Shown piece by piece: positions 52,732 through 64,000 of a DNA stretch of 64,000 nucleotides. Both the position numbers and the translations under genes were made by a program. Every line of letters starts with the position of its first letter. The first letter of the stretch is position 1. This DNA is from Acidomonas methanolica (GTDB lineage: Bacteria; Pseudomonadota; Alphaproteobacteria; Acetobacterales; Acetobacteraceae), in NCBI RefSeq assembly GCF_004346035.1, contig NZ_SLZN01000001.1, forward strand, positions 310,001 through 374,000. The letters run 5' to 3'. The notes under the pieces were generated by a model that did no database searches, was not told the DNA's origin, and saw only the letters and a list, made by a program, of their open reading frames with translations.

Positions 52732-54003
52732 ATGATTGAGCTGGGCCCCGGCGTCGTCGCGGCGAGTCGCATGACAGGCCGGGCGACAGGCTGGACAGGC
52801 GCCCTGGCGATGGTCATGGTCTGCGGCGTTCTTTCCCCGCCCGCCGCGGCGACAAGCCTGCGCGACGCCATCACGACCGCCTGGGGGCAGGACCCCAACG
52901 CCCGCTCGGCCCGCGTGGACGAGATGGCGGCCAGCCGCACGGCGCGCGACACGGATAGCTGGTTCCCGAGCGGCCCCATCCTGAACGGCCAGTATCAGGA
53001 CGACCATTTCATCGGCACGAATATCGGCTACACCACCTATCAGGGCACGATCATGCTCCCGCTCTGGCTGCCGGGACAGGGAACGGCGACCGTCAAGAAC
53101 GCGCTCGCCGACGCCGAAATGGCCCGCGCCACGCAGAAGGTCGCTCATCTCGCCACCGCCATCCGCGTGCTGGACGTCACCGGGACCGCCACCCTGCTCA
53201 GGCGCGAGCTGGACTCGCTGCGGACGGCGGACACGCTCCTCGCGCGCATCGAACACGACACGCGCCATGCCGTCGCCGTCGGCGAAAGTCCCACCACGGA
53301 CCAGGAAGCCGTCGCGGGCGAGAAAGCCGACCTCGACGCCCGGATCGCCGATACGGAGCAGAATATAGAAACCGCCCGCGCCGAACTCGGCACGTTGACG
53401 GGCAGCGAGGACATTCCAGACCTCATGGCGCTCGACGGCCATGTCCTCACGGCGCGCGGCGTGAAGCTGGACCCGGAGCACGACCCCCGCATCCTTCTCG
53501 CCGCCGCCGCGACCCGCGCGGCGCACGCGTCCTACGAGGTTGCCGCCCATTCCTACATACCCGCTCCCGAGGTCGGGCTGATGGTCACGAAACAGGGCCA
53601 GTACGGCAGCCCGTGGGACACGCAGGTGGGCGCGCAATTCACCGTCGCGCTGCCCAGCGCCGCGCGCAACACGCCGATGCTGATGAAACAGGCCAAGCTG
53701 GTTGGCCTGGCGGAACGCGACGCCGTGCTGGCCGAACGCAAGGTGCGGCTCGAATATGCCAGCACCCGCGCCCAGCTCGTCGCCGCCCTGAAACTGCTCA
53801 AGAGCACGCGCGCCAGCCAGGGCGCGCTCGACGACCGCGCCAACCAGCTCGACCATGCCTGGCGTGTGGGCGAAACCTCGCTGATCGAGGCACTCCGCGC
53901 CCGCCGCATGGCGCTCGACGCACAGATGCGCGCCGCGCGCGCCGAGGTAGTCTGGCGCGTCGCGCTGGTGCGGATGATCCTGATGGCGGACGAGCTTCCC
54001 TAG
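52732..54003 (+). CDS. TolC/CzcC-family outer membrane efflux protein
   Basis: A 423-residue protein of the outer membrane efflux family. It has a signal region (about 20-42, ALAMVMVCGVLSPPAAATS), then two long coiled-coil hairpins with repeats typical of TolC proteins (AITTAWGQDPNARSARVDEM and, in the second half, LEYASTRAQLVAALKLLKST). It is shorter than TolC (471), nearer to CzcC/CusC. No membrane fusion protein or RND pump gene follows, so it stands alone. The start may be the ATG at 52771 instead, since neither start has a strong ribosome-binding site. Confidence 0.82.
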   Translation: MIELGPGVVAASRMTGRATGWTGALAMVMVCGVLSPPAAATSLRDAITTAWGQDPNARSARVDEMAASRTARDTDSWFPSGPILNGQYQDDHFIGTNIGYTTYQGTIMLPLWLPGQGTATVKNALADAEMARATQKVAHLATAIRVLDVTGTATLLRRELDSLRTADTLLARIEHDTRHAVAVGESPTTDQEAVAGEKADLDARIADTEQNIETARAELGTLTGSEDIPDLMALDGHVLTARGVKLDPEHDPRILLAAAATRAAHASYEVAAHSYIPAPEVGLMVTKQGQYGSPWDTQVGAQFTVALPSAARNTPMLMKQAKLVGLAERDAVLAERKVRLEYASTRAQLVAALKLLKSTRASQGALDDRANQLDHAWRVGETSLIEALRARRMALDAQMRAARAEVVWRVALVRMILMADELP

Positions 54004-54108
54004 CAGGCTGTTCCGGACGCCGTTTTCCATCCCTTGTCGCCCTGTTTTCCACACCCCATGTTCTGCCCGTCATCCGACACTGCATCATCAGATACGGAGG
54101 ATCTGCAC

Positions 54109-54942
54109 ATGCGTTTTCGTCAAAGTGTCCGGTCCGGCGCCGCGATCGCCGCACTCATTCTCAGCGCAGCCGCGCTTCCGGCACAGGCACAGGAGGGTTT
54201 GCGCGTCATCGACGCCAGTGGCCATCAGATCGGCGTCCTGATCCCCTCGCCTGAAGCCGCGCCGATCTCCAGCCTCCCCGATACCGATCTTGCCGTTTTC
54301 GCTGCGCTCGACCGCATGATGGCGCGGGAAATGGCGATCATGGAAGCGGCCGACAACGAGATGGCGGCGCAATTGAACGCAGAGCGGCGCGCCATGCCGG
54401 TGGCGCAAGACCAGAGCGGCGACGGAAGCACGGGCCATGAGGGCGTCGCCTGGCAAACCTTCAGCGCGGTAAGCATCGGCGGGCGGGGCGCCTCCTGCAC
54501 CCGGACGGTCACCATGACGTCGAACGGCACATCCGCCCCTGTCGTTCATACGACCAGCACGGGAGGCAGCGCCTGCGCGGCGCTCCTCGCACCGGGCCCC
54601 GTGTCCACGCAATCCCCGCCTGAGCCGAGCCGGTCGGCGCTCCGGACGCTCATCCCTGCCGTGGACATGCGCGCAACCGGCTCCGACGAAGCGCGCTGTA
54701 TGGGGACAATGAGAATTGCAGAACTGGAAAGTGCGGGATTGACCGGGACGATGCGGGCCTTCGTGGGACGCGAGTGGCGGTTTTCCGCGATTTTCCGTGC
54801 CCTAACGACCCGAAGGCAATCGCATGCTGCCTCCTGGGCGAGACAGGGATGTTGCAGTGGAATGCGGACAACGGGACAACGTGCGTTGCAGCATGCGCGG
54901 AAAGATGAAGCGCCGTCTGAGAATGGTTTAGGGACGTCTTAA
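54109..54942 (+). pseudogene. Secreted host protein, probably interrupted by the prophage left end
   Basis: The ATG at 54109 has a perfect GGAGG eight bases upstream. Residues 1-27 are a signal peptide ending in PAQAQ. The next 150 residues look like an ordinary exported protein (HQIGVLIPSPEAAPISSLPD, a helical DRMMAREMAIMEAADNEMAA and a beta-like TRTVTMTSNGTSAPVVHTTS). From about residue 197 (base 54697) the composition changes to Arg, Ser and Trp-rich sequence without secondary structure. That change coincides with the proposed left end of the Mu-like element, so the frame probably runs on into phage DNA by chance to a stop at 54942. If the insertion model is wrong, it is simply a 277-residue protein of unknown function. 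Confidence 0.55.
54697..54904 (+). mobile_element. Probable left end of a Mu-like prophage, with repeated motifs
   Basis: The element would begin TGTATGGGGACAA at 54697, with 5'-TG as in Mu ends and CGCGC (54692-54696) as a possible target duplication. Within 210 bases there is a repeated pattern: GGGACAA at 54703 and 54873 is each followed six bases later by TTGCAG (54716 and 54886). A further TTGCAG lies at 54852, and GGAAAG follows at 54726 and 54899. Mu-type transposases bind several sites at each end, so these look like such sites. The right end is outside the window, so the boundary is inferred. Confidence 0.5.
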
Positions 54943-54958
54943 ACGGAGCAATACTGTT

Positions 54959-55717
54959 TTATTTGTCGGCGGATTGCTCATCCAGGCCGCTCCGAGGGTC
55001 ATATTCGATCTGCGGGACGGCGATGGGATGGACACGTCGGCTGGCGATAATAGTAGCGATGACCCTAGCCCGCTCTTTCGCGGCGGCTAGATCTATCGGT
55101 CTGAGGTATGAGCAATAAAGCACCATCGTCGACAGGTCGTTTTGGGTGACATAGGGCGAACCGCTCGCCGCGATCACCGCGCTCCACGCACACGCTTGAA
55201 GCATGTTGGACACAACTGCGCCGCCTCTGCCTCCGTCAGGATCGTGCCGGCCCGCAATAAAATCAAAAAGAATGTCATTCTGCGCCTTGTAGTCTCCTGC
55301 GAGCGCGTTGACGTATTGCCTAACAAATCTGTCCTGGTGTTGCATGCATCCCTTCATTCCTCCCCACGTATAGCATCTCCCTAGAAAGGCTTTTGCTTCT
55401 TCGGCGTATTTCTGGGCTTTGCCGGCATTGACTATAGGTGGAGAGTATTCGACCGTATCTTTATTCTGCGGTTCTGGCGCTACTGAAGGTGGATCGGACA
55501 GCGGCTGCGTTTCCGCGTGGCGGGGCGCGCCTTGGGACGTGGCTTGCGGCGGCGGCAAGAAGGGCAGCGGCTGTGGCGGCGCGGCTGCGACAGGCTTCGC
55601 GTGTTCGGACAGAAAAAATATAGCGAGCAGGAGCGGAGCGCCGATCACGACAAACGGCGCGACGATCATCATAGCCGAAAATTTCCTAATAAATTCAGAC
55701 GTTTGCTTCTTGCTCAT
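54959..55717 (-). CDS. Prophage membrane-anchored protein of unknown function (candidate moron)
   Basis: A 252-residue protein. One N-terminal membrane helix (MMIVAPFVVIGAPLLLAIFF, about 15-35) is followed by a Pro/Ala/Gln-rich linker (about 45-95) and a C-terminal helical domain with conserved-looking cysteines (FLGRCYTWGGMKGC, LQACAW, LYCSY). The domain would face the periplasm. It overlaps the repressor gene by four bases and lies downstream of it, so it would be expressed whenever the prophage is silent. Its base composition is less GC-rich than host genes. That position is typical of lysogenic conversion or superinfection-exclusion genes. I do not recognise the family. Confidence 0.65.
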   Translation of the reverse strand: MSKKQTSEFIRKFSAMMIVAPFVVIGAPLLLAIFFLSEHAKPVAAAPPQPLPFLPPPQATSQGAPRHAETQPLSDPPSVAPEPQNKDTVEYSPPIVNAGKAQKYAEEAKAFLGRCYTWGGMKGCMQHQDRFVRQYVNALAGDYKAQNDILFDFIAGRHDPDGGRGGAVVSNMLQACAWSAVIAASGSPYVTQNDLSTMVLYCSYLRPIDLAAAKERARVIATIIASRRVHPIAVPQIEYDPRSGLDEQSADK

Positions 55718-56421
55718 GAAAGCGCCTGCAATCTGTAGGCGACGCGGCCTATTATTGTGATGGTGTCGTCATCATCCGGTTGACCCCAGCGGAATTTTGT
55801 TATGGGGATTTCCTCGGGCGGATACCGATTGTTGTCAGAGATGATCTTGATCGTGCCCGTAGCGGTTGGGGAAAGCCGCTTGACCATCAGCATCCCATTG
55901 GAAACAAACAGGGTTACGGCGGCCAGCATTCTGCGGGGAGAGGTGTCAACGAGGACACGATCGCCCGTTGCGAGCGTCGGCTCCATACTGTCGCCGCGCA
56001 CCTTGAGGATGATCGTGTGCTTCGGCTGTAGCCCCAAATCCTCAAGAAAATGCCGCGAAATCGAGACTTGACGCGGCTGAGGCGTGTCAAGTCCCAGAGA
56101 ACCGTGACCGGCGCTGGCTTCCGCTTCGTCATAGACACGGACAAGAACTCCTTCGGGAGAGGAGTCACCCAATCGAGGGCTGTCGATGTCGGCGACACCG
56201 AAAATCAGCCATTGCGGCGACACGTCGCAGGCAGCCGCTAATCGGAGAGCTGTATCTACGCGGAGGGTGCGCCCCTTCAGATACTCGTTGAGAGAACTCT
56301 GGGAAATGCCGGAGTTCCGCACGACTGCGGTGTAGCCACCACCTTTTTCGACCGCAATCCGCACTCTTTCAGGGCCTCCCAACTCTTCCCAGTTCGGAAC
56401 CGGAACTGGGAAGTCAGGCAT
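55714..56421 (-). CDS. S24-family phage repressor (LexA/CI-like)
   Basis: The lysogeny repressor, about 235 residues from the ATG at 56421 (a GTG at 56430 is possible). The N-terminal helix-turn-helix is in GGYTAVVRNSGISQSSLNEY and LKGRTLRVDTALRLAAACDV. A linker holds a candidate Ala-Gly cleavage site in SAGHGS. The S24 peptidase domain has the nucleophile in VRGDSMEPTL and the general-base lysine in GMLMVKRLSP. RecA-stimulated self-cleavage is therefore likely. It is divergent from ner across the control region. Confidence 0.9.
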   Translation of the reverse strand: MPDFPVPVPNWEELGGPERVRIAVEKGGGYTAVVRNSGISQSSLNEYLKGRTLRVDTALRLAAACDVSPQWLIFGVADIDSPRLGDSSPEGVLVRVYDEAEASAGHGSLGLDTPQPRQVSISRHFLEDLGLQPKHTIILKVRGDSMEPTLATGDRVLVDTSPRRMLAAVTLFVSNGMLMVKRLSPTATGTIKIISDNNRYPPEEIPITKFRWGQPDDDDTITIIGRVAYRLQALS

Positions 56422-56430
56422 CGGACGCAC

Positions 56431-56644
56431 TCAACTCATATAATCGATTGTTAAATAAACCAAAAACCGGCTTATCCACAGATGTTCTTCTCAAAAGAAG
56501 TGGGAAACAACTTTTATAAGTTGTATCAGCTGAAATGTGCTGTATTCTCACGTTCGTTCCCTATCGAATTGTGGGCCTAGCGGAAGCTACGGCGCGGGGA
56601 TCAGAAAAAGGGCGGCAGCCACCGCCCGTTTGAGGAGGTCACTT
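56431..56644. promoter_or_regulatory. Prophage repressor/ner control region
   Basis: A rightward early promoter is likely with -35 TTGTAT (56521-56526), a 16-base spacer and -10 TATTCT (56543-56548). ACAACTT (56507-56513) and AAGTTGT (56518-56524) form a perfect inverted repeat that overlaps the -35, a good operator. A second inverted repeat CTTCT...AGAAG lies at 56487-56500. TTATCCACA at 56472-56480 is a perfect consensus DnaA box. GGGCGG (56610-56615) and CCGCCC (56622-56627) form a hairpin just before the AGGAGG of ner. Confidence 0.65.
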
Positions 56645-56962
56645 ATGGCACAAAAGCCACGTGAAATGCATCCGGGGATGCATGTGGAGGATATCCGCGC
56701 CGTGTTGCGCAAGAAGTGGGGCACGCTCCGGGCGCTTTCCATCCATCTCGGCCGGAATCCGAACGCGGTAACGCAGACACTTTCCACGCCCGGATATTCC
56801 GTGCCGGTCGAACTGGCGATTGCCGAGGAACTGGGCATGTCGCCTCATGAGGTCTGGCCTGCGCGCTTTCATCCGGACGGCACTCCTGTCTCGTTGCGGG
56901 TCGACCGGACTCCTACCGCCGCGATCGCTGTCGATCACCGTAGAAAAGAGGTCGCGGCATGA
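56645..56962 (+). CDS. Ner-like phage DNA-binding regulator
   Basis: A 105-residue protein of the Ner/Nlp (SfsB) helix-turn-helix type. The HTH is in KKWGTLRALSIHLGRNPNAV, followed by the recognition part TQTLSTPGY and SVPVELAIAEELGMSPHEVW, a Ner signature including the P-H-E-x-W motif. In Mu, Ner represses the early and repressor promoters during lytic growth. The AGGAGG site stands about seven bases upstream. It overlaps the ParB-like gene by four bases. Confidence 0.88.
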   Translation: MAQKPREMHPGMHVEDIRAVLRKKWGTLRALSIHLGRNPNAVTQTLSTPGYSVPVELAIAEELGMSPHEVWPARFHPDGTPVSLRVDRTPTAAIAVDHRRKEVAA

Positions 56963-57858
56963 ACGTCATCGAGATATCGCTGGCCGATATCGAGCTCGGC
57001 GACCGGCTGCGCGCCGTGGACGTCGATTGGGCGCAGGTGATCGCTGCCTCCGTTATGGAGCACGGGCAGCGGACGCCGATCGAGGTGCGCGAGCAGAAGG
57101 GGCGCGGGAAGAAGCCCTATGCGCTGATCGCGGGAGCGCATCGCATCCGGGCCGTATTCCTGGCAGGCCTGGACAGCATCTTCGCCATCGTGCTGAAGGC
57201 CGACGATCTTCAGGCGAAGCTGCTGGAGATCGACGAGAACCTGTGCCGCCGCGAATTGTCGGCGCTGGACCGGGCCGTATTCCTGGCCGAGCGCAAGCGC
57301 GTGTACGAGGAGCTGCATCCCGAGGCGAAGCATGGGGGCGATCGGAAGTCGGATCAAGCGCGCACGCTTGCACACTTGATCCCCTCCTTCACCGAGGCGA
57401 CTGCCCAGAAGCTCGGTGTCGACGCCAGCACTTTGAGACGCTCGCTGGCCCGGTTTAGCAGCATTTCGCCGGATGTGCGCGAAAAAATCGCGGGGACGTG
57501 GCTGGCCGAGAGCGGCTCGCAACTGGATGCGCTGGCCAAGGAGGTGCCGGAGATGCAGCGGAAGGTCGCGGATTTCGTCGTGCAGTGGCCCGGTGTTCGG
57601 CAGGTGAAGGAGATCGTCCGGCAGATCAGGAAGCTGCCCGTACCGCCGGAGCCGGGGAAGCTGGAGAAATTCCTCGCCTTCTTCCGCAAATGCGATCCGG
57701 AAGAGCAGCAGACGATCGTCGAGCATGCCGCAGGGCAGATGCCTGCCGTGGCATTCGAGGCGGCGTGGACGAAGGGCTCCGCGTATCAGCGGGAGATGAT
57801 CGTCGATTTCCTTGCGCCGCATCTGCCCGGATTTGTCCGGGAGAGTGAGGTTGCATGA
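56959..57858 (+). CDS. ParB/sulfiredoxin-fold phage protein
   Basis: A 299-residue protein with an N-terminal ParB-like domain (about 5-100). ISLADIELGDRLRAVD, GQRTPIEVREQ and LIAGAHRIRAVFLAGLD are the characteristic boxes, and ENLCRRELSALDRAVFLAER continues into the ParB helix region. A central helix-turn-helix (about 150-175) is in SFTEATAQKLGVDASTLRR. The C-terminal part is helical. Similar genes lie between ner and the transposase in Mu-like phages of alphaproteobacteria. A nuclease or DNA-binding role is inferred. It overlaps both neighbours by four bases. Confidence 0.85.
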   Translation: MNVIEISLADIELGDRLRAVDVDWAQVIAASVMEHGQRTPIEVREQKGRGKKPYALIAGAHRIRAVFLAGLDSIFAIVLKADDLQAKLLEIDENLCRRELSALDRAVFLAERKRVYEELHPEAKHGGDRKSDQARTLAHLIPSFTEATAQKLGVDASTLRRSLARFSSISPDVREKIAGTWLAESGSQLDALAKEVPEMQRKVADFVVQWPGVRQVKEIVRQIRKLPVPPEPGKLEKFLAFFRKCDPEEQQTIVEHAAGQMPAVAFEAAWTKGSAYQREMIVDFLAPHLPGFVRESEVA

Positions 57859-58130
57859 CGGAGGTCATGCAGGATGAACACCGGAATCGGGCCACGGCAC
57901 TGATGGTCGGGGAGTTCATTCGTGAAATTCGCGGGAAGCGAGGACTCACCCAGGGGCAGCTCGGCAGCCTGGTGGGGAAGGACGCTCCACTCATTGGCGA
58001 TTGGGAACGGGGGAAGTGCGGCATGCGGCTGACGTCGTTTCTCGATCTGATCTGGGCGCTCGATCTCTCCGCTGACGAGCTGATCGGGTTCCTGCAGGCA
58101 GATGGCGCTCTGCGGGCGGTGACGCCATGA
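57855..58130 (+). CDS. Xre-family small DNA-binding protein
   Basis: A 91-residue protein with one Xre helix-turn-helix: VGEFIREIRGKRGLTQGQLG, then SLVGKDAPLIGDWERGKCGM and LTSFLDLIWALDLSADELIG. It overlaps the ParB-like gene and the following fused gene by four bases each, so it is part of the early operon. It may be a second regulator of the phage early region. Function beyond DNA binding is unknown. Confidence 0.8.
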   Translation: MTEVMQDEHRNRATALMVGEFIREIRGKRGLTQGQLGSLVGKDAPLIGDWERGKCGMRLTSFLDLIWALDLSADELIGFLQADGALRAVTP

Positions 58131-59344
58131 CCCGGACGATCCAGTCGCGCGAGCAGCTCGATCTCCTCGACTGGCAGGGACCGGACACGGTGGTCGCCTA
58201 CGATGATGTGCTGATCCGGGCGAACAGCCGGGCTGGACGTCTGGCGCGGGCGATCTCGGTGACGCTCGACACCTGCGGGCGGTCGCGGCGCGATATTGCC
58301 GACCGGATGGCCGAGCCTGCGGAGTTTTCCTTCGCCGACGGCGAAATCCGCATGGCGCGGTTCACCGCCGCGTTTTACCGCGACCCGGAGGAGAGCAGCG
58401 CCGGCGGCCTGTTCGCCGCGATCTCCGACAGTCTCACGCATGCGCTGACGGCTGCGGATGCGCTCGTTGATCAGGGCATTCTCGCCTGCCAGACGATCCT
58501 CTCCCCGCTGGCGATTCCCGTGGCGCTGGCGGGAGCGGTTTCAGGGATGCTGTCCGAGGCGTCCGGGGTGTGGGACGCGCTGATCTCCGACAGCGCGCAA
58601 CCCGTGCAGGATGCTGCGTCGAGTGCGCAGGCGACGCTGGCGGCCGGGGTGACAGCGCCTGCGACCAACAGCGATACGACCTATGCGGATGCGGTGTCGG
58701 CAGCACTGGCCGGCGTCCCGGCCGCGCTTGCGAATGCCTCGGCCACCAGCGATACGGCGGCGATCGCGCCGAGCGCACAGGTGGCCGACGGCGTTACCCT
58801 GACAGCCGATCCGCAGGCCGTCACCACGGTGCTCCTCTCGGGGGCAGTGCAGCTCGGCGATGCGGCCGCCACGCTGTCGGACACCAGCACGGCGCCGTCA
58901 TCGGTGCTGGGGCTCGGGGTGATCGCGCGGCTCATGGCGGTGACGCAGGCCGTGGCGAGCGCTGCTTCCGTCACCTATGTCAGTCAACAGGATGCGATGA
59001 GCGGGCGCGATGCGCTGCTGGACGCGATCGACGCGCTGGGGACCGATATCGAGAACGCGGCGGCGCTCGGGGCCGCTTTCGCCATGTCCCGGATGTGGGG
59101 TGCGCTGCGCGATCTGCGCACTGCGGTGATCGCCGATTATTCGGACCGGATCGGACGCCTGCCGGCGGTGATCTCCGTGACGCTCGGCGCGCAGGTCAGC
59201 GCGTGGCTCGTCGCCTATGCCGTGGCGGGCGATGCGCCGTCGGATGTCGAGACGGTCATGGAGGATCTGGTGACGCGCAACGATCTGATTCACCCGGCGC
59301 TGGCGGGACCAGGCGCGCTCGATGTGCTGGACCTGACGTCGTGA
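58127..59344 (+). CDS. Fusion of a phage early protein with the C-terminal part of Mu gpN-type tail/DNA circulation protein
   Basis: A 405-residue frame that joins two unrelated parts. Residues 1-61 (LDLLDWQGPDTVVAYDDVLI, GRLARAISVTLDTCGRSRRD) resemble small early proteins of Mu-like phages. From about residue 70 (ADGEIRMARFTAAFYRDPEE) the sequence resembles the DNA circularisation/tail protein gpN after loss of its N-terminal domain, then a long Ala/Thr/Ser-rich helical region. The join lies at about 58310-58340. The early part is in frame with the tail part, so the deletion that removed the transposase to tape-measure genes has left an open frame. It overlaps the Xre gene and gpP by four bases. 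Confidence 0.7.
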   Translation: MTRTIQSREQLDLLDWQGPDTVVAYDDVLIRANSRAGRLARAISVTLDTCGRSRRDIADRMAEPAEFSFADGEIRMARFTAAFYRDPEESSAGGLFAAISDSLTHALTAADALVDQGILACQTILSPLAIPVALAGAVSGMLSEASGVWDALISDSAQPVQDAASSAQATLAAGVTAPATNSDTTYADAVSAALAGVPAALANASATSDTAAIAPSAQVADGVTLTADPQAVTTVLLSGAVQLGDAAATLSDTSTAPSSVLGLGVIARLMAVTQAVASAASVTYVSQQDAMSGRDALLDAIDALGTDIENAAALGAAFAMSRMWGALRDLRTAVIADYSDRIGRLPAVISVTLGAQVSAWLVAYAVAGDAPSDVETVMEDLVTRNDLIHPALAGPGALDVLDLTS

Positions 59345-60717
59345 GCGAAAGCGCCGCGTCGACCTCCTCCCGGCCGGTGACGGTGCGGATCGCCGGGCGC
59401 GTGCTGACGACATGGACCCACTGCGAGGTCGGCCGCGATCTGGCCGATATCGCCGGTTCGTTCCGCATCGAATATCTCGACGTGGCGCGCTCGGACGCGC
59501 TGCTCGGGGCGGATGCGGATGACGGCCTCGGCGAGATGGCGGCGATCCGCGATCGCGACCCGGTGGAAATCCTCGTGGCGGGCAAGGTGGTGCTGCGCGG
59601 ATGGGTGGACGACGTGCTCCTGCGCGCCGACGAGCATTCGGCCTCGGCGATCATCACCGGGAGGGACGTCACCGGCGATCTCGTGGACTGCTCCGTCAAT
59701 CCGATCGGGCCGGGCGAGTATCGCAATATCCGGCTGGAGAGCCTCGTGGGCACGCTGACGCAGCCCTTCGGGATCACGCTGGACCGGCAGGTGGAGACCG
59801 GAGCGCCGTTCACGCTGGTGGCGCTCGATCAGGGTGACACCGTGATGGGGGCGATCGAGAAACACACCCGCCAGCGCGGGGTCCTGGTCACGAGCGACGG
59901 CGTGGGCGGCATCGTGCTGACGCAGGGCGGCACGACGCAGGCGCCCGAGGCGCTGAGCTTTCCGGGCAATGTCCGCGCGATCGATGTCCGCATGTCGGGA
60001 CGCGGGCGCTATTCCGACGTCTATGTCAAAGGGCAGTTCAGAAGCCAGCTAAGACCGGCTCAAGCCACGCTTAAAGCGGGCTCCGCGCCACTGGAAGCGA
60101 TCCCGTCCCGGTCCGGCGCGTCCCCGTCGAATACCTCGGTCGAGGAGGCGGCGTCGTGCCGCTATGGTCACTGCGTGGACCCGGCGGTGACACGGTATCG
60201 GCCCCGCGCCTGGATGAGCGCCACGCAGTCGGGCGGCTCCGTCGCGACCCAGCAGAGCGGCAATCCCGCGCTCGATGCCGGCACGCGGGGACTCTCCGGC
60301 GTGCAGATCCCGGCATGGGCCGCCTATCATGGCGGCACGCGGCATATGCGGCGCAAGCGGACGAAGCCGCGCGAGGCGTCGGACCCGTGGACATTGCAGG
60401 ATCAGGCGCAATGGCGGATGCGCTCCAGCCGGGCGAACACCACGGCGCGGATCTATGTCGTGCCCTCTCTCGCCACCGCGTCCGGCGATCTCTGGCTGCC
60501 GAATCAGCTCGTCGCGGTGTCGGACAGCTATTCGGGGATCGACCAGACGATGCTGATCGGCGCGGTGACCTGGGCCGCAGCGCCGGAGGGATACGAGACG
60601 CGGATCTCGGTCGTCGATCCGGACGTCTACGATCTGACGGGAGACGAGGATCATCGCAAGCCGGGCGCGCGCAAATCACGCCATCTCACCGCGCGCTCGA
60701 TGCTGGGACGCGGCTGA
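59341..60717 (+). CDS. Mu gpP / phage baseplate hub protein (gp44 type)
   Basis: A 458-residue tail protein starting with GTG at 59341. TVRIAGRVLTTWTHCEVGRD and DIAGSFRIEYLDVARSD match the opening of Mu gpP, and later LEILVAGKVVLRGWVDDVLL-like and LESLVGTLTQPFGITLDRQV blocks follow the same fold as late-control D proteins. It forms the central hub below the tail tube. The last base overlaps the ATG of gp45 (TGATG). Codon use is like that of the other baseplate genes. Confidence 0.85.
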   Translation: MSESAASTSSRPVTVRIAGRVLTTWTHCEVGRDLADIAGSFRIEYLDVARSDALLGADADDGLGEMAAIRDRDPVEILVAGKVVLRGWVDDVLLRADEHSASAIITGRDVTGDLVDCSVNPIGPGEYRNIRLESLVGTLTQPFGITLDRQVETGAPFTLVALDQGDTVMGAIEKHTRQRGVLVTSDGVGGIVLTQGGTTQAPEALSFPGNVRAIDVRMSGRGRYSDVYVKGQFRSQLRPAQATLKAGSAPLEAIPSRSGASPSNTSVEEAASCRYGHCVDPAVTRYRPRAWMSATQSGGSVATQQSGNPALDAGTRGLSGVQIPAWAAYHGGTRHMRRKRTKPREASDPWTLQDQAQWRMRSSRANTTARIYVVPSLATASGDLWLPNQLVAVSDSYSGIDQTMLIGAVTWAAAPEGYETRISVVDPDVYDLTGDEDHRKPGARKSRHLTARSMLGRG

Positions 60718-61268
60718 TGGAGGACATTCACGATCACCTCGATCATCTGCATCAGCTCCTCCGCACGCAGATCCTGCGCGGGGTGGTGACGGCGGTGGAC
60801 GATACCGGCGCGTCGCAGATGCTGACGGTGCGAACGCATTACGGGATCGTCCGTGCGCAGGTGGAGTGGGCGCAGCCGTTCGGGTTCGGCTCGCACGTGC
60901 CGCTCGATGGCGCCGTCGTGCATGTGTTCGCCAATGGCGGCGATCCGTCCGACCTGGTCGCGCTGGTGGCGCATAATCCCTCCGTGGCGCGGATGGGCGA
61001 TCTGGCCGAGGGAGAGACGGTCCTGTACGACCGGCTCGGGCAGGCTGTCTATCTCAAGGCCGGCGCGATCGTGCAGGTGGATGCGGCGCAGCAGATGGTG
61101 GTGCGTGTGGCGGGGCAGCCCGTCTTGACGGTGACGGCGTCGGGCGTGCAGGTTCAGGGCACCATCACCGCTACCGAGGATGTCGTCGCCGGGCAGATCA
61201 GCCTGCAATCCCACGTGCATGGAAATGTCCAGCAGGGCGGCGATCTGACGGGCAAGCCGCAGGACTGA
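60717..61268 (+). CDS. Mu gp45 / phage baseplate spike protein
   Basis: A 183-residue spike protein. The N-terminal OB-fold region (about 18-95) has GVVTAVDDTGASQMLTVRTH and VVHVFANGGDPSDLVALVAH. The beta-helix-like C-terminal part contains YLKAGAIVQVDAAQQMVVRV and ITATEDVVAGQISLQSHVHG; the His pair in SHVHG resembles the metal-binding tip of membrane-piercing spikes. The 3' two thirds lies in an exact tandem duplication. The reading frame itself is intact. Confidence 0.88.
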   Translation: MEDIHDHLDHLHQLLRTQILRGVVTAVDDTGASQMLTVRTHYGIVRAQVEWAQPFGFGSHVPLDGAVVHVFANGGDPSDLVALVAHNPSVARMGDLAEGETVLYDRLGQAVYLKAGAIVQVDAAQQMVVRVAGQPVLTVTASGVQVQGTITATEDVVAGQISLQSHVHGNVQQGGDLTGKPQD

Positions 61269-61275
61269 CGGGGTG
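60918..61275 (+). repeat. 358-bp tandem duplication, copy 1
   Basis: This unit covers the 3' part of gp45 and a few bases beyond its stop. It is followed directly by copy 2, and by eye the two are identical along the whole length. Both ends carry GTGC, so a four-base microhomology probably generated the duplication by slippage or end joining. Confidence 0.9.
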
Positions 61276-61626
61276 GTGCATGTGTTCGCCAATGGCGGCG
61301 ATCCGTCCGACCTGGTCGCGCTGGTGGCGCATAATCCCTCCGTGGCGCGGATGGGCGATCTGGCCGAGGGAGAGACGGTCCTGTACGACCGGCTCGGGCA
61401 GGCTGTCTATCTCAAGGCCGGCGCGATCGTGCAGGTGGATGCGGCGCAGCAGATGGTGGTGCGTGTGGCGGGGCAGCCCGTCTTGACGGTGACGGCGTCG
61501 GGCGTGCAGGTTCAGGGCACCATCACCGCTACCGAGGATGTCGTCGCCGGGCAGATCAGCCTGCAATCCCACGTGCATGGAAATGTCCAGCAGGGCGGCG
61601 ATCTGACGGGCAAGCCGCAGGACTGA
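61273..61626 (+). pseudogene. Duplicated 3' fragment of gp45
   Basis: A frame of 117 residues that opens at a GTG (61273) four bases after the true gp45 stop and repeats its C-terminal two thirds exactly. It lacks the N-terminal trimerisation/OB part, and no ribosome-binding site stands before it. If translated it would be a tip-only spike fragment that could compete with the full protein in the trimer. Confidence 0.7.
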
Positions 61627-61633
61627 CGGGGTG
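61276..61633 (+). repeat. 358-bp tandem duplication, copy 2
   Basis: Second identical unit, after which the sequence returns to GTGC followed by unique DNA. Because the copies have not diverged, the event is recent or the sequence is kept alike by gene conversion; an assembly artefact is also possible. Confidence 0.9.
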
Positions 61634-61674
61634 GTGCGCTCTCGCACCATGACGCGCCCCGCGCCTGCCGGGCC

Positions 61675-62178
61675 ATGCTCGCGGGCATGGCGCAAATCCC
61701 CTTCTGCTCTCTGCGGCTCGGCGTCAATCCGGCGCTCGGCGTGCTCGATCTGGTCATCGATCCGATCGGCAACGGTCGCGGGCGCATGGCGATCGACCGG
61801 ACGCCCGCGACGCCTCTGCTGATCGCGCTGGGGACCGACCGCCGCGCGGATGCGGATGACGTGCTGCCCGAAATGATGACGGCGCCGGCAGGCGCGAGAC
61901 CGGGCCTGTTCGCGTATCGCGGATGGGCGGGCGACATCTGCCTGCCGGCGGAACAGCGCTATGGCTGGAAGGGGTGGCTGCTCGCGCGCGCGGGCAACAC
62001 GGAGGCGACGCGCGTCGCGGCGGCGGATTATGCCGCCCAGGCCGTCTCGCCGATCGCCGAGTATCATGGCGTGGAGATCGATACATCCGCGTCCTGGTAT
62101 GACCGCGCGCGGGGCATTCTTCAGATCACGGTCTCGGCCGCCGCTGTCCGGGTGGCGCAAAGGGTGACGGCGCTGTGA
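61675..62178 (+). CDS. Mu gp46-type baseplate protein
   Basis: A 167-residue protein (163 if the ATG at 61687 is used). FCSLRLGVNPALGVLDLVID precedes LLIALGTDRRADADDVLPEM, and QRYGWKGWLLARAG is a typical gp46 signature. In Mu this protein sits in the baseplate wedge next to gp47. It overlaps gp47 by four bases. A small hairpin GGTGCG-CTCT-CGCACC lies about 40 bases before the start. Confidence 0.8.
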   Translation: MLAGMAQIPFCSLRLGVNPALGVLDLVIDPIGNGRGRMAIDRTPATPLLIALGTDRRADADDVLPEMMTAPAGARPGLFAYRGWAGDICLPAEQRYGWKGWLLARAGNTEATRVAAADYAAQAVSPIAEYHGVEIDTSASWYDRARGILQITVSAAAVRVAQRVTAL

Positions 62179-63248
62179 CGGCCGCAATCCCCACCGTGCA
62201 GGCCCTCGCTCAGCGTTTCGCCGCGGGGCTGGCGCAGCAGACATTCACGGCGTCGGACGGCACGACAGTGACGCTCGACGCCACGGCGCCCTCCACGCTC
62301 GAACAGGCGCTCTCGATCCTGTCGGCGATGGCCGACAAGGAGGTCTATCTCTATCTGCGCGATATCGGCCTCGAGTTGATGGTCACGACGGCGACGGAAA
62401 ACGGGTTGCTGCCTCAGCACGCGGTGATCTGGGGCGTGCCGCGTCTGGGGGCGACCGCTGCTGTCGGGAATGTGGTGATCGCGGCATCCGGCGCCGTGCC
62501 TCTCCCTCAGGGCGCTCTGCTGACCGTCGACGGGTCGGCGCAATGGAGCGTCAATGTGGCGACGGAAATCGCCGCCGGCGCAACGGCGGAGGTCGCTGTC
62601 ACCGCGACCGTGGCCGGTCCAGCCGGCAATCTCGCCGCCAATACGGCGCTGACGTTCCTCTCGCCCGTGGCGGGCGTCCTGTCCGCGACGGTCGATCAGG
62701 ATGGCCTGGCGGGTGGAAACGCGATCGAAGCCGTCGAAAGCTGGCGCGCGCGGATCATCGCCGCGATCCGCAACCCTCCGCAGGGAGGATCGGCCTCTGA
62801 TTACGAGAGATGGGCTTCCGACGCGGGAGCGGCCTATGTCCGGGTTATCCCGTCCTGGATGGGGATCGGCACTGTCGGCGTCATCGTGGCCATGTCGGGA
62901 GGCGTGGCCGCTACGGCCGCGCAGATCGCCGTGATCCAGGCGTATATCGACGCGCGGCGTCCCGTGCGGGGCAACGTCATCGTGGCCTCGGCCATCATCG
63001 TGCCGCAGGATCTGACGATTGTCCTCAATCCCAACACGCAGGCAGCGCAGGCGGCCGTGACCTCGGCGTTGACGGCCTGGTATCTGGCTCAAGGGATCAA
63101 CCCGACCCTCTACGTTGCCGCGATCGACAGTCAGATCACGCAAGCGGCCGGTGCCACGAACACGCTCGTCAGCCCGACCGCGGATCAGACACTGGCCGCC
63201 AACCAGATGGCGGTCCTCGGAACCATCACCTTCGAGGTGCCCTCATGA
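62175..63248 (+). CDS. Mu gp47 / baseplate J-like protein
   Basis: A 357-residue wedge protein starting with GTG at 62175 inside the gp46 stop. IPTVQALAQRFAAGLAQQTF is the N-terminus. The central part has GTAxAL-type features (LPQHAVIWGVPRLGATAAVG and AAGATAEVAVTATVAGPAGN), followed by GGNAIEAVESWRARIIAAIR and PPQGGSASDYERWASDAGAA, the clear baseplate J signature. It overlaps gp48 by four bases. Confidence 0.92.
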   Translation: MTAAIPTVQALAQRFAAGLAQQTFTASDGTTVTLDATAPSTLEQALSILSAMADKEVYLYLRDIGLELMVTTATENGLLPQHAVIWGVPRLGATAAVGNVVIAASGAVPLPQGALLTVDGSAQWSVNVATEIAAGATAEVAVTATVAGPAGNLAANTALTFLSPVAGVLSATVDQDGLAGGNAIEAVESWRARIIAAIRNPPQGGSASDYERWASDAGAAYVRVIPSWMGIGTVGVIVAMSGGVAATAAQIAVIQAYIDARRPVRGNVIVASAIIVPQDLTIVLNPNTQAAQAAVTSALTAWYLAQGINPTLYVAAIDSQITQAAGATNTLVSPTADQTLAANQMAVLGTITFEVPS

Positions 63249-63835
63249 GCCGGACGCCAGGACAAATCCTCGCCGAATGGCTCAGTTTACTGCCCCACGG
63301 ATCAGCGTGGCCGCGCCAGATGCAGAGCAATCTGGCGGCGTTGCTGATGGCCGGAGCGATCGCGCGCGCGCAAATGGAGGCGGATATCGAGGCGCTCGAA
63401 CTCGAGATCAGCCCGCAGACCTCCACCTTGCTGCTGTCGGACTACGAGGCTGTGCTGGGACCGGATGCCTATGGCCGCGATATCGGCGCTCTTACAACCG
63501 CGCAACTGCAGGCCCTGCTCTTCAGCCGCTGGATCGCGCGGGGAGGTCAGTCGATCTCCTATTACGTAGCGCTGGGTGCGGCGATGGGCGTCACGCTGAG
63601 CATCTACGAGCCCGATCCGGCGGTCTATGGCGATTTCGTCTACGGGGATGGCTCTGTCTACAGCGATCCGCGCATCGATCTCTTCACGTGGGTCGTGACG
63701 CTGCCGAGTCCAGGGACGGACCTCGAGCCCATGATCACCGCAAATCGGCAGCCCGACACGCAGGTTGTTTTTGTTTACGTCGGCGGCACAGGCTTCGGCT
63801 CTTACGACTTCTCCAGCATCGCCTTCGGAAGCTAA
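63245..63835 (+). CDS. Mu gp48 (YmfQ)-type tail protein
   Basis: A 196-residue baseplate protein of the YmfQ/DUF2313 type. LAEWLSLLPHGSAWPRQMQS is the conserved N-terminus, and TAQLQALLFSRWIARGGQSI with YYVALGAAMGVTLSIYE follows. The C-terminal domain contains VVFVYVGGTGFGSYD. It closes the baseplate operon before the fibre region, as in Mu. Confidence 0.88.
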   Translation: MSRTPGQILAEWLSLLPHGSAWPRQMQSNLAALLMAGAIARAQMEADIEALELEISPQTSTLLLSDYEAVLGPDAYGRDIGALTTAQLQALLFSRWIARGGQSISYYVALGAAMGVTLSIYEPDPAVYGDFVYGDGSVYSDPRIDLFTWVVTLPSPGTDLEPMITANRQPDTQVVFVYVGGTGFGSYDFSSIAFGS

Positions 63836-63837
63836 GT

Positions 63838-64000
63838 ATGATGATTAGAAACCTTCTTCTGCTTATGATGCTCGTGGCCGCCTCGAGCGTAAATGCGTTT
63901 GGACAATCGTCGCCGGCCCCGATCGGGCCGCAAGGCGCTCCAGTGCCCATCGCCAGCGGGGTCAAATGGACGCCGGCGATGTGGGGGGCCGCGTTCCAGA
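63838..64000 (+). CDS. Start of a phage structural or exported protein (cut by window end)
   Basis: ATG at 63838, three bases after gp48. The visible 54 residues begin with a signal-peptide-like stretch (RNLLLLMMLVAASSVNAFG) and then QSSPAPIGPQGAPVPIASGV. In Mu this place belongs to the tail fibre gene. A secretion signal on a virion tail protein would be unusual, so this may instead be a cargo or moron gene. The rest is outside the window. Confidence 0.6.
   Translation, partial: MMIRNLLLLMMLVAASSVNAFGQSSPAPIGPQGAPVPIASGVKWTPAMWGAAFQ

Follow-up and report, generated by a model that had tools for sequence, protein, structure and literature searches.

The gene on the reverse strand between the prophage repressor and the left end of a Mu-like element in Acidomonas methanolica is very probably a cargo gene (moron) on the lysogeny side of that prophage. 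It was found in a 64,000-nucleotide stretch of the genome, referred to here as the window. A sequence-only reading had taken it for a candidate exclusion or defence gene and had proposed a homology search in prophages as a check. That search finds homologues in the same place, with the same four cysteine columns, in many other prophages, and the observation is therefore more than chance. The picture of a lysogeny-side gene next to the repressor, which recurs as cargo of phages and whose product is predicted to be exported or anchored in the membrane, is supported. What surprised us is the slot rather than the window copy: a bounded cargo position that is filled, from one prophage to another, mostly by nameless exported or membrane proteins.

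The gene and the Mu-like remnant that carries it

The gene is real, and its four-base overlap with the repressor gene, which had been noted from the sequence, is confirmed as ATGA. It had also been called the only gene between the repressor and the left end. This holds with the left end mapped to 54,697, since the 262 bases from the gene to that end are noncoding and no further gene lies between. The description of the product as having one membrane helix, a Pro-rich linker and a Cys-containing, putatively periplasmic domain was likewise borne out by the sequence. Residues 15–36 are the sole strongly hydrophobic N-terminal stretch of the 252-residue protein and are preceded by four Lys or Arg residues; 14 prolines fall within residues 41–90; and there are exactly four cysteines (115, 124, 176 and 202), all of them in the C-terminal domain, which is predicted to lie on the periplasmic side. 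The coordinates are collected in Table 1.

Table 1. Features of the element and of the gene under study, in window coordinates.
Feature	Position	Strand	Remarks
5 bp target duplication CGCGC	54692..54696		Second copy outside the window, immediately after the right end
Mu-like defective prophage, left part	54697..64000		Continues beyond the window to 70,670 (L065:6670)
Left end, noncoding	54697..54958		Repeated TCCC/TCCCG motifs, resembling transposase sites
Gene under study	54959..55717	−	252 aa, predicted exported/membrane-anchored, phrog_5882 relative
Helical domain codons (residues 99–226)	55040..55423	−	Four conserved Cys, predicted Sel1-like arrangement
N-terminal hydrophobic helix codons (residues 15–36)	55610..55675	−	From hydropathy
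Prophage repressor	55714..56430	−	HTH + S24 peptidase-like; its stop overlaps the ATG of the gene under study
Ner/Nlp-like regulator	56645..56962	+	First lytic-side gene; HTH_35, phrog_769
ParB-like protein	56959..57858	+	Mu-like early region; ParB_N, phrog_3264
XRE-type regulator	57855..58130	+	
Chimeric open reading frame	58127..59344	+	HTH regulator N-terminus, baseplate-hub C-terminus; marks the internal deletion
Retained tail/baseplate genes	59345..64000	+	Baseplate_J at 62175–63248

The 252-residue protein matched nothing above cut-off in Pfam and NCBIfam (a hit to the zincin peptidase family PF11667, E 0.13, was discarded as a chance match over the hydrophobic stretch), and among the PHROGs it matched phrog_5882, a group of unknown function (E 5.9e-8). 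The PADLOC defence profiles gave no match to the core domain (residues 88–252) and, over other family members, four stray matches, one member each, the best with E 0.011. No promoter-like site was found in 54500–57000, and an Rfam scan of 54000–64000 gave no match. The G+C content of the gene is indeed below that of the host, as had been pointed out (0.564, the host sequence within the window having 0.657), but this is not specific to it. The repressor gene is nearly as low at 0.577, so that low G+C is a trait of the module and not of this gene alone, and we dropped it as a sign of the gene's recent import. In 16 of 20 loci the family gene has a G+C content below that of its own locus.

We located the left end from a comparison of related prophages in the DNA that follows the repressor or its neighbour. 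These have a terminal layout in common, consisting of TCCC/TCCCG repeats and then a terminus of the type TGTCCC...CA; in the window, the 450 bp that follow the gene contain TCCC eight times, where the background has a mean of 1.45 (sd 1.45). When 25,117 downstream positions were scanned for the right end, a single one was found, 70,670, at which 10 of 12 terminal bases are repeated in inverted orientation. The element so delimited extends over 15,974 bp. Its termini are TGTATGGGGACA and TGTCCCGCTACA, which match at 10 of 12 bases when inverted, and CGCGC flanks both ends; it thus has the 5 bp target duplication and the TG...CA inverted ends by which we recognise a Mu-like prophage. The insertion target is a host open reading frame, which by codon arithmetic reaches a stop at the sixth codon past the right-flank duplication.

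Within the element the repressor and the side bearing nlp, parB and the next regulator are divergently oriented. The chimeric reading frame matches phrog_2345 at residues 7–63 and phrog_184 at residues 62–396, and the counterpart of its N-terminal part stands alone after parB in several other prophages; judged from these matches, it is the scar left by a deletion inside the element. Genes for transposase, head and lysis have been lost, and the repressor, nlp, parB, the regulator, tail and baseplate genes and a D12 methyltransferase gene at the right end are kept. Neither the C-terminal domain of MuA (PF09299) nor the Mu I protein has a match anywhere in the genome to which the window belongs. 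The element is a defective remnant of a Mu-like transposable prophage, not a working one.

The sequence-only reading had stated that the remnant lost its lytic genes and kept this one, and took the retention to suggest selection. The first statement is right as far as transposase, head and lysis genes are concerned, but the tail and baseplate genes, nlp, parB and the methyltransferase gene were kept as well. The second does not follow. With the deletion junction inside the chimeric frame, a single event spares both ends of the element whatever their value, and the tail genes have survived as well. That the gene is still present in this remnant is therefore no evidence of selection.

Two further observations concern the rest of the element. 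The last gene before the right end (L065:5681–6577, or 69681–70577 in window numbering) encodes a D12-class adenine DNA methyltransferase and is a second cargo gene, at the opposite end of the remnant. The tail and baseplate region contains a 300-base tandem duplication (60908–61207 and 61266–61565), the copies being 99% identical at a spacing of 358.

Distribution of the family and the slot behind the repressor

A profile of 13 sequences was searched against 397 Acetobacteraceae genomes, with at most eight first-look candidates scored per genome. Homologues are present in at least 20 of the 397 (the window's own genome counted) and in 18 of 102 genera, and 26 of the 27 family matches have uninterrupted frames, the exception being one copy in a tandem array. 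Identity to the window protein is mostly 20–30%. The four Cys columns are invariant over 23 aligned rows, phrog_5882 is matched by 21 of the 26 members of family set A3, and an AxA-like site follows the most hydrophobic N-terminal stretch, identified with no hydropathy cut-off, in 21 of 22 homologues. One other match (L008, in genome G079), which is absent from the matches of the 13-sequence profile search, was dropped because it aligns to residues 29–70, the Pro-rich linker, in an unlike protein.

Class-wide, a search with phrog_5882 found one genome among 385, the window's own, and a search with the A4 profile found two among 275, namely the window's own and a weak match with an internal stop. 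Beyond the Acetobacteraceae the family gene would seem, from these searches, to be rare or too divergent to detect; the relatives found there are in Rhizobium phage RR1-A, one Variovorax plasmid and one Microvirga plasmid. The RR1-A protein (RHXG_00016), like phrog_5882, is homologous to the family over the helical domain, and its gene is phage-borne, on the reverse strand between the tape-measure gene and gpU. It differs in lying in the tail module rather than behind a repressor, and in having no export signal as annotated. A pattern search with the core protein gave no match in genome contigs and, in viral contigs, only a record of the same prophage at 100% identity.

The surroundings were inspected in all 20 homologue-bearing genomes. 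In 15, the window's own included, the family gene stands directly behind a Mu-like repressor or its remains. At L047, L057 and L059 the repressor was assigned by its position next to nlp, at L058, a contig edge, a piece of it was recognised by eye, and 200 to 460 bases intervene between it and the family gene at L046, L048 and L063. In three further genomes (L050, L051 and L055/L124) the gene is an insert within a Mu-like prophage, on the opposite strand to the lytic genes, and in two (L049 and L062) no phage context was recognised; in 18 of the 20, then, it has a Mu-like prophage around it or a repressor next to it. The L055/L124 copy is about 7 kb from the transposase. All four interior insertions, that is those in the three prophages and in RR1-A, run against the lytic genes, and these copies can thus be expressed during lysogeny. 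In 11 of the 20 genomes the contig with the homologue also has an open frame for a Mu transposase domain, 4 to 17 kb away; the family gene is therefore largely cargo of fuller prophages and not a marker of remnants.

Two of the interior loci deserve mention in their own right. The L050 copy, between gemA and mor, directly adjoins a gene (L050:8823–10229) for a non-specific DNA/RNA endonuclease whose N-terminus resembles a signal sequence; this nuclease may be situated where phage DNA enters. At L051 (6390–12740, genome G135), eight tandem open family copies and one broken copy are present on the reverse strand in a Mu-like head module.

Retention in other decayed prophages had been named in advance as support, and one such case is L053, where the homologue is open, 54% identical to the window protein and beside a repressor cut to a short C-terminal piece. 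For this pair dN/dS is unusable because dS is saturated, and differences by codon position were taken instead: 0.37 at first, 0.29 at second and 0.71 at third positions. This is the signature of purifying selection acting on the family, and L053 is a better case of retention than the window remnant.

We sampled the slot between the repressor and the left end independently of the family, by searching the same 397 genomes with the ParB of the window. The 40 matches taken have E values up to 2e-12, a limit chosen after the list had been viewed, weaker matches resembling chromosomal ParB. At four of these loci (L120, L122, L123 and L125) no repressor was found, and 36 readable slots remain; at L057, L059, L121 and L124 we assigned the repressor from its position. 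By hand sorting, the family occupies 10 of the 36 slots and other genes 16, and nothing clear was seen in the remaining 10. The gene is thus optional, being present, absent or replaced at one site in related phages, which is what is meant by a moron. Frequent loss or frameshifting in related remnants had been set down as the outcome that would speak against the idea. Frequent frameshifting was not seen, but absence or replacement is common, in 26 of the 36 prophages.

The 16 other occupants comprise a single-TM family (four members), an exported family (three), a cytosolic family with an R-x4-H pair (three), another cytosolic family (two) and four singles; overall the slot has five families with two or more members, plus some singles. 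A strongly hydrophobic N-terminus is found in 18 of the 26 slot genes and an internal hydrophobic stretch in three further ones, L103 being borderline, and 10 of the 26 have the four-base repressor overlap. When ten of the non-family occupants were scanned, one scored above the Pfam cut-off, to a family of unknown function, and none matched a PHROG of known function. We read the slot as a lysogeny-side cargo position.

Among these occupants, L102, L104, L106 and L113 form a second single-TM slot family, 40–57% identical and with an invariant GLRDPQWGGH; L104, its sole scanned member, had no match in Pfam or the PHROGs. In the cytosolic slot proteins of L096, L099 and L107 the R-x4-H pair (R83 and H88) is invariant and presumably resembles the HEPN RNase motif. 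The structural model is poor (mean pLDDT 69.7); a fold search with it gave no match with E <0.2, and none of the 50 matches listed is a HEPN protein. A viral contig search with L099 gave no match.

Predicted fold of the C-terminal domain

The model of residues 88–252, calculated from 23 sequences, has a mean pLDDT of 87 and six main helices. Foldseek found no significant match to this core model (best E 0.33). VIA-align placed AlgK at the top (Z 9.2, rmsd 6.0, 103 aligned) and LpnE second (Z 9.1, rmsd 2.6, 91 aligned), followed by c5321, a second AlgK, LceB, an Oxalobacter Sel1 protein and the periplasmic domain of SflA; these top seven have Z values from 9.2 to 7.0, a size that, according to the program's own note, can occur by chance among helical proteins. 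We take LpnE and AlgK to be Sel1-like proteins. The Sel1 Pfam profile has no match in 26 family members at E up to 0.5. The likeness to LpnE, c5321, LceB and AlgK is in the predicted arrangement of helical hairpins, for which they are top-ranked among solved structures; the window domain differs from them in being short, and would correspond to about one to two repeat units. The predicted fold weakly resembles Sel1-like repeats, and a shared fold of this kind is no indication of function.

Possible roles of the gene product

The explanation that we favour overall, with something less than even confidence, is that of a cargo gene in the lysogeny operon, the product of which has a periplasmic partner-binding domain and acts in superinfection exclusion. 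In the lysogen, the protein would be produced from the transcript of the repressor. The helical domain would face the periplasm, held by two disulfides, and the window copy would be tethered to the inner membrane by its helix and the Pro-rich linker. The domain may bind a protein partner in the manner of Sel1-like repeats. Such a partner would most likely belong to the entry path of incoming phages, whether a tail or tape-measure protein that they eject or a factor of the host that they exploit, and its binding would stop the entry of incoming phage DNA. Exclusion is our first choice because the gene is on the lysogeny side, in a variable slot, and its product would be in the compartment that incoming DNA must cross; as an assignment of role on its own, it is a tentative one. 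The position and the kinds of occupant found elsewhere fit an exclusion or a lysogenic-conversion gene, and the family probably alters the envelope of the host, most likely so as to bar other phages.

Precedents for parts of this proposal can be cited. P22 SieA is a polytopic membrane protein, unlike the window protein. SieA is described as a prophage-expressed inner membrane block to DNA injection and occurs in three types that are <30% identical to one another (PMC10883804). SNIPE is a membrane nuclease that acts at injection (PMC13190303). In the B3-like transposable phage Fc02, which belongs to another host group, the optional accessory gene e4, of no assigned function, occupies the same kind of slot behind repc and is on the lysogen transcript (PMC9936078). 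In D3112-like phages accessory genes occur in fixed regions and some have been likened to morons (PMC4378225). Cargo beside a repressor is of a known kind, and the family and the set of occupants are undescribed as far as our searches reached; among the open-licence papers listed, we found nothing on the family or on the cargo of Mu-like prophages of acetic acid bacteria.

The main rival is a different service to the lysogen, in which the exported protein raises host fitness by lysogenic conversion, either neutralizing a periplasmic effector or wall-degrading enzyme as an immunity protein or modifying the envelope. PA5086 and the immunity protein PA5087, both of which we take to be Sel1-like and periplasmic, are among the structural neighbours of the domain, though low (Z 4.4 and 4.0). 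The array in genome G135, with its eight open paralogues and one broken, resembles a multi-specific immunity set, an exported nuclease is encoded next to one family copy, and the breadth of sequence noted above would also suit an immunity family. We nonetheless consider this unlikely: the neighbours of the copies that were inspected by eye include no recognisable gene for a secretion system or an effector, the slot carries other phage cargo elsewhere, and the association with Mu-like prophages or their repressors extends to 18 of 20 genomes. A very improbable role is that of an accessory to the lysogeny switch, a membrane sensor coupling an envelope signal to the repressor. The ATGA overlap and the recurrence of the family beside the repressor are what such a sensor would lead one to expect, but members of the family are also found at a distance from the repressor, both within prophages and in RR1-A, the family is missing from the slot in 26 of the 36 related prophages, and the cytoplasmic part of the window protein would amount to no more than about 14 residues.

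The gene could also be a hitch-hiker with no present function in the host, carried in a remnant so young that it has not yet decayed. The repressor, nlp, parB and the next regulator are open as well, no match to a Mu transposase was found in the host genome, and the junction of early gene and hub is explained by one deletion within the element. Against this stand the preservation of the frame and of the four cysteines across the family despite great divergence, and the excess of third over second codon-position differences to L053 (0.71 against 0.29). Conservation of this kind argues for a function in the family, not necessarily in the window copy, and for that copy we regard the hitch-hiker as quite unlikely.

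A broader form of the exclusion proposal is that the slot in Acetobacteraceae Mu-like prophages is an exchange site for single, lysogeny-expressed genes, mostly for exported or membrane proteins of undescribed families, each guarding the lysogen in its own way, with the window family contributing a new, disulfide-bonded periplasmic Sel1-like exclusion protein; this we consider less likely than not. If it is true, new exclusion or conversion genes could be found in transposable prophages by reading one bounded slot, from the repressor stop to the terminal repeats.

The exclusion proposal is directly testable with the homologue from Gluconobacter frateurii NBRC 3264, a culture-collection strain. 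This was the one homologue in a second set of 14 named loci, at least four of which are from genomes already covered. It has the four-base repressor overlap, an N-terminal hydrophobic stretch, the linker and similar terminal repeats behind it, and the C-terminal sequence HPIAVPQ-x2-YDP is common to this copy and the window protein.
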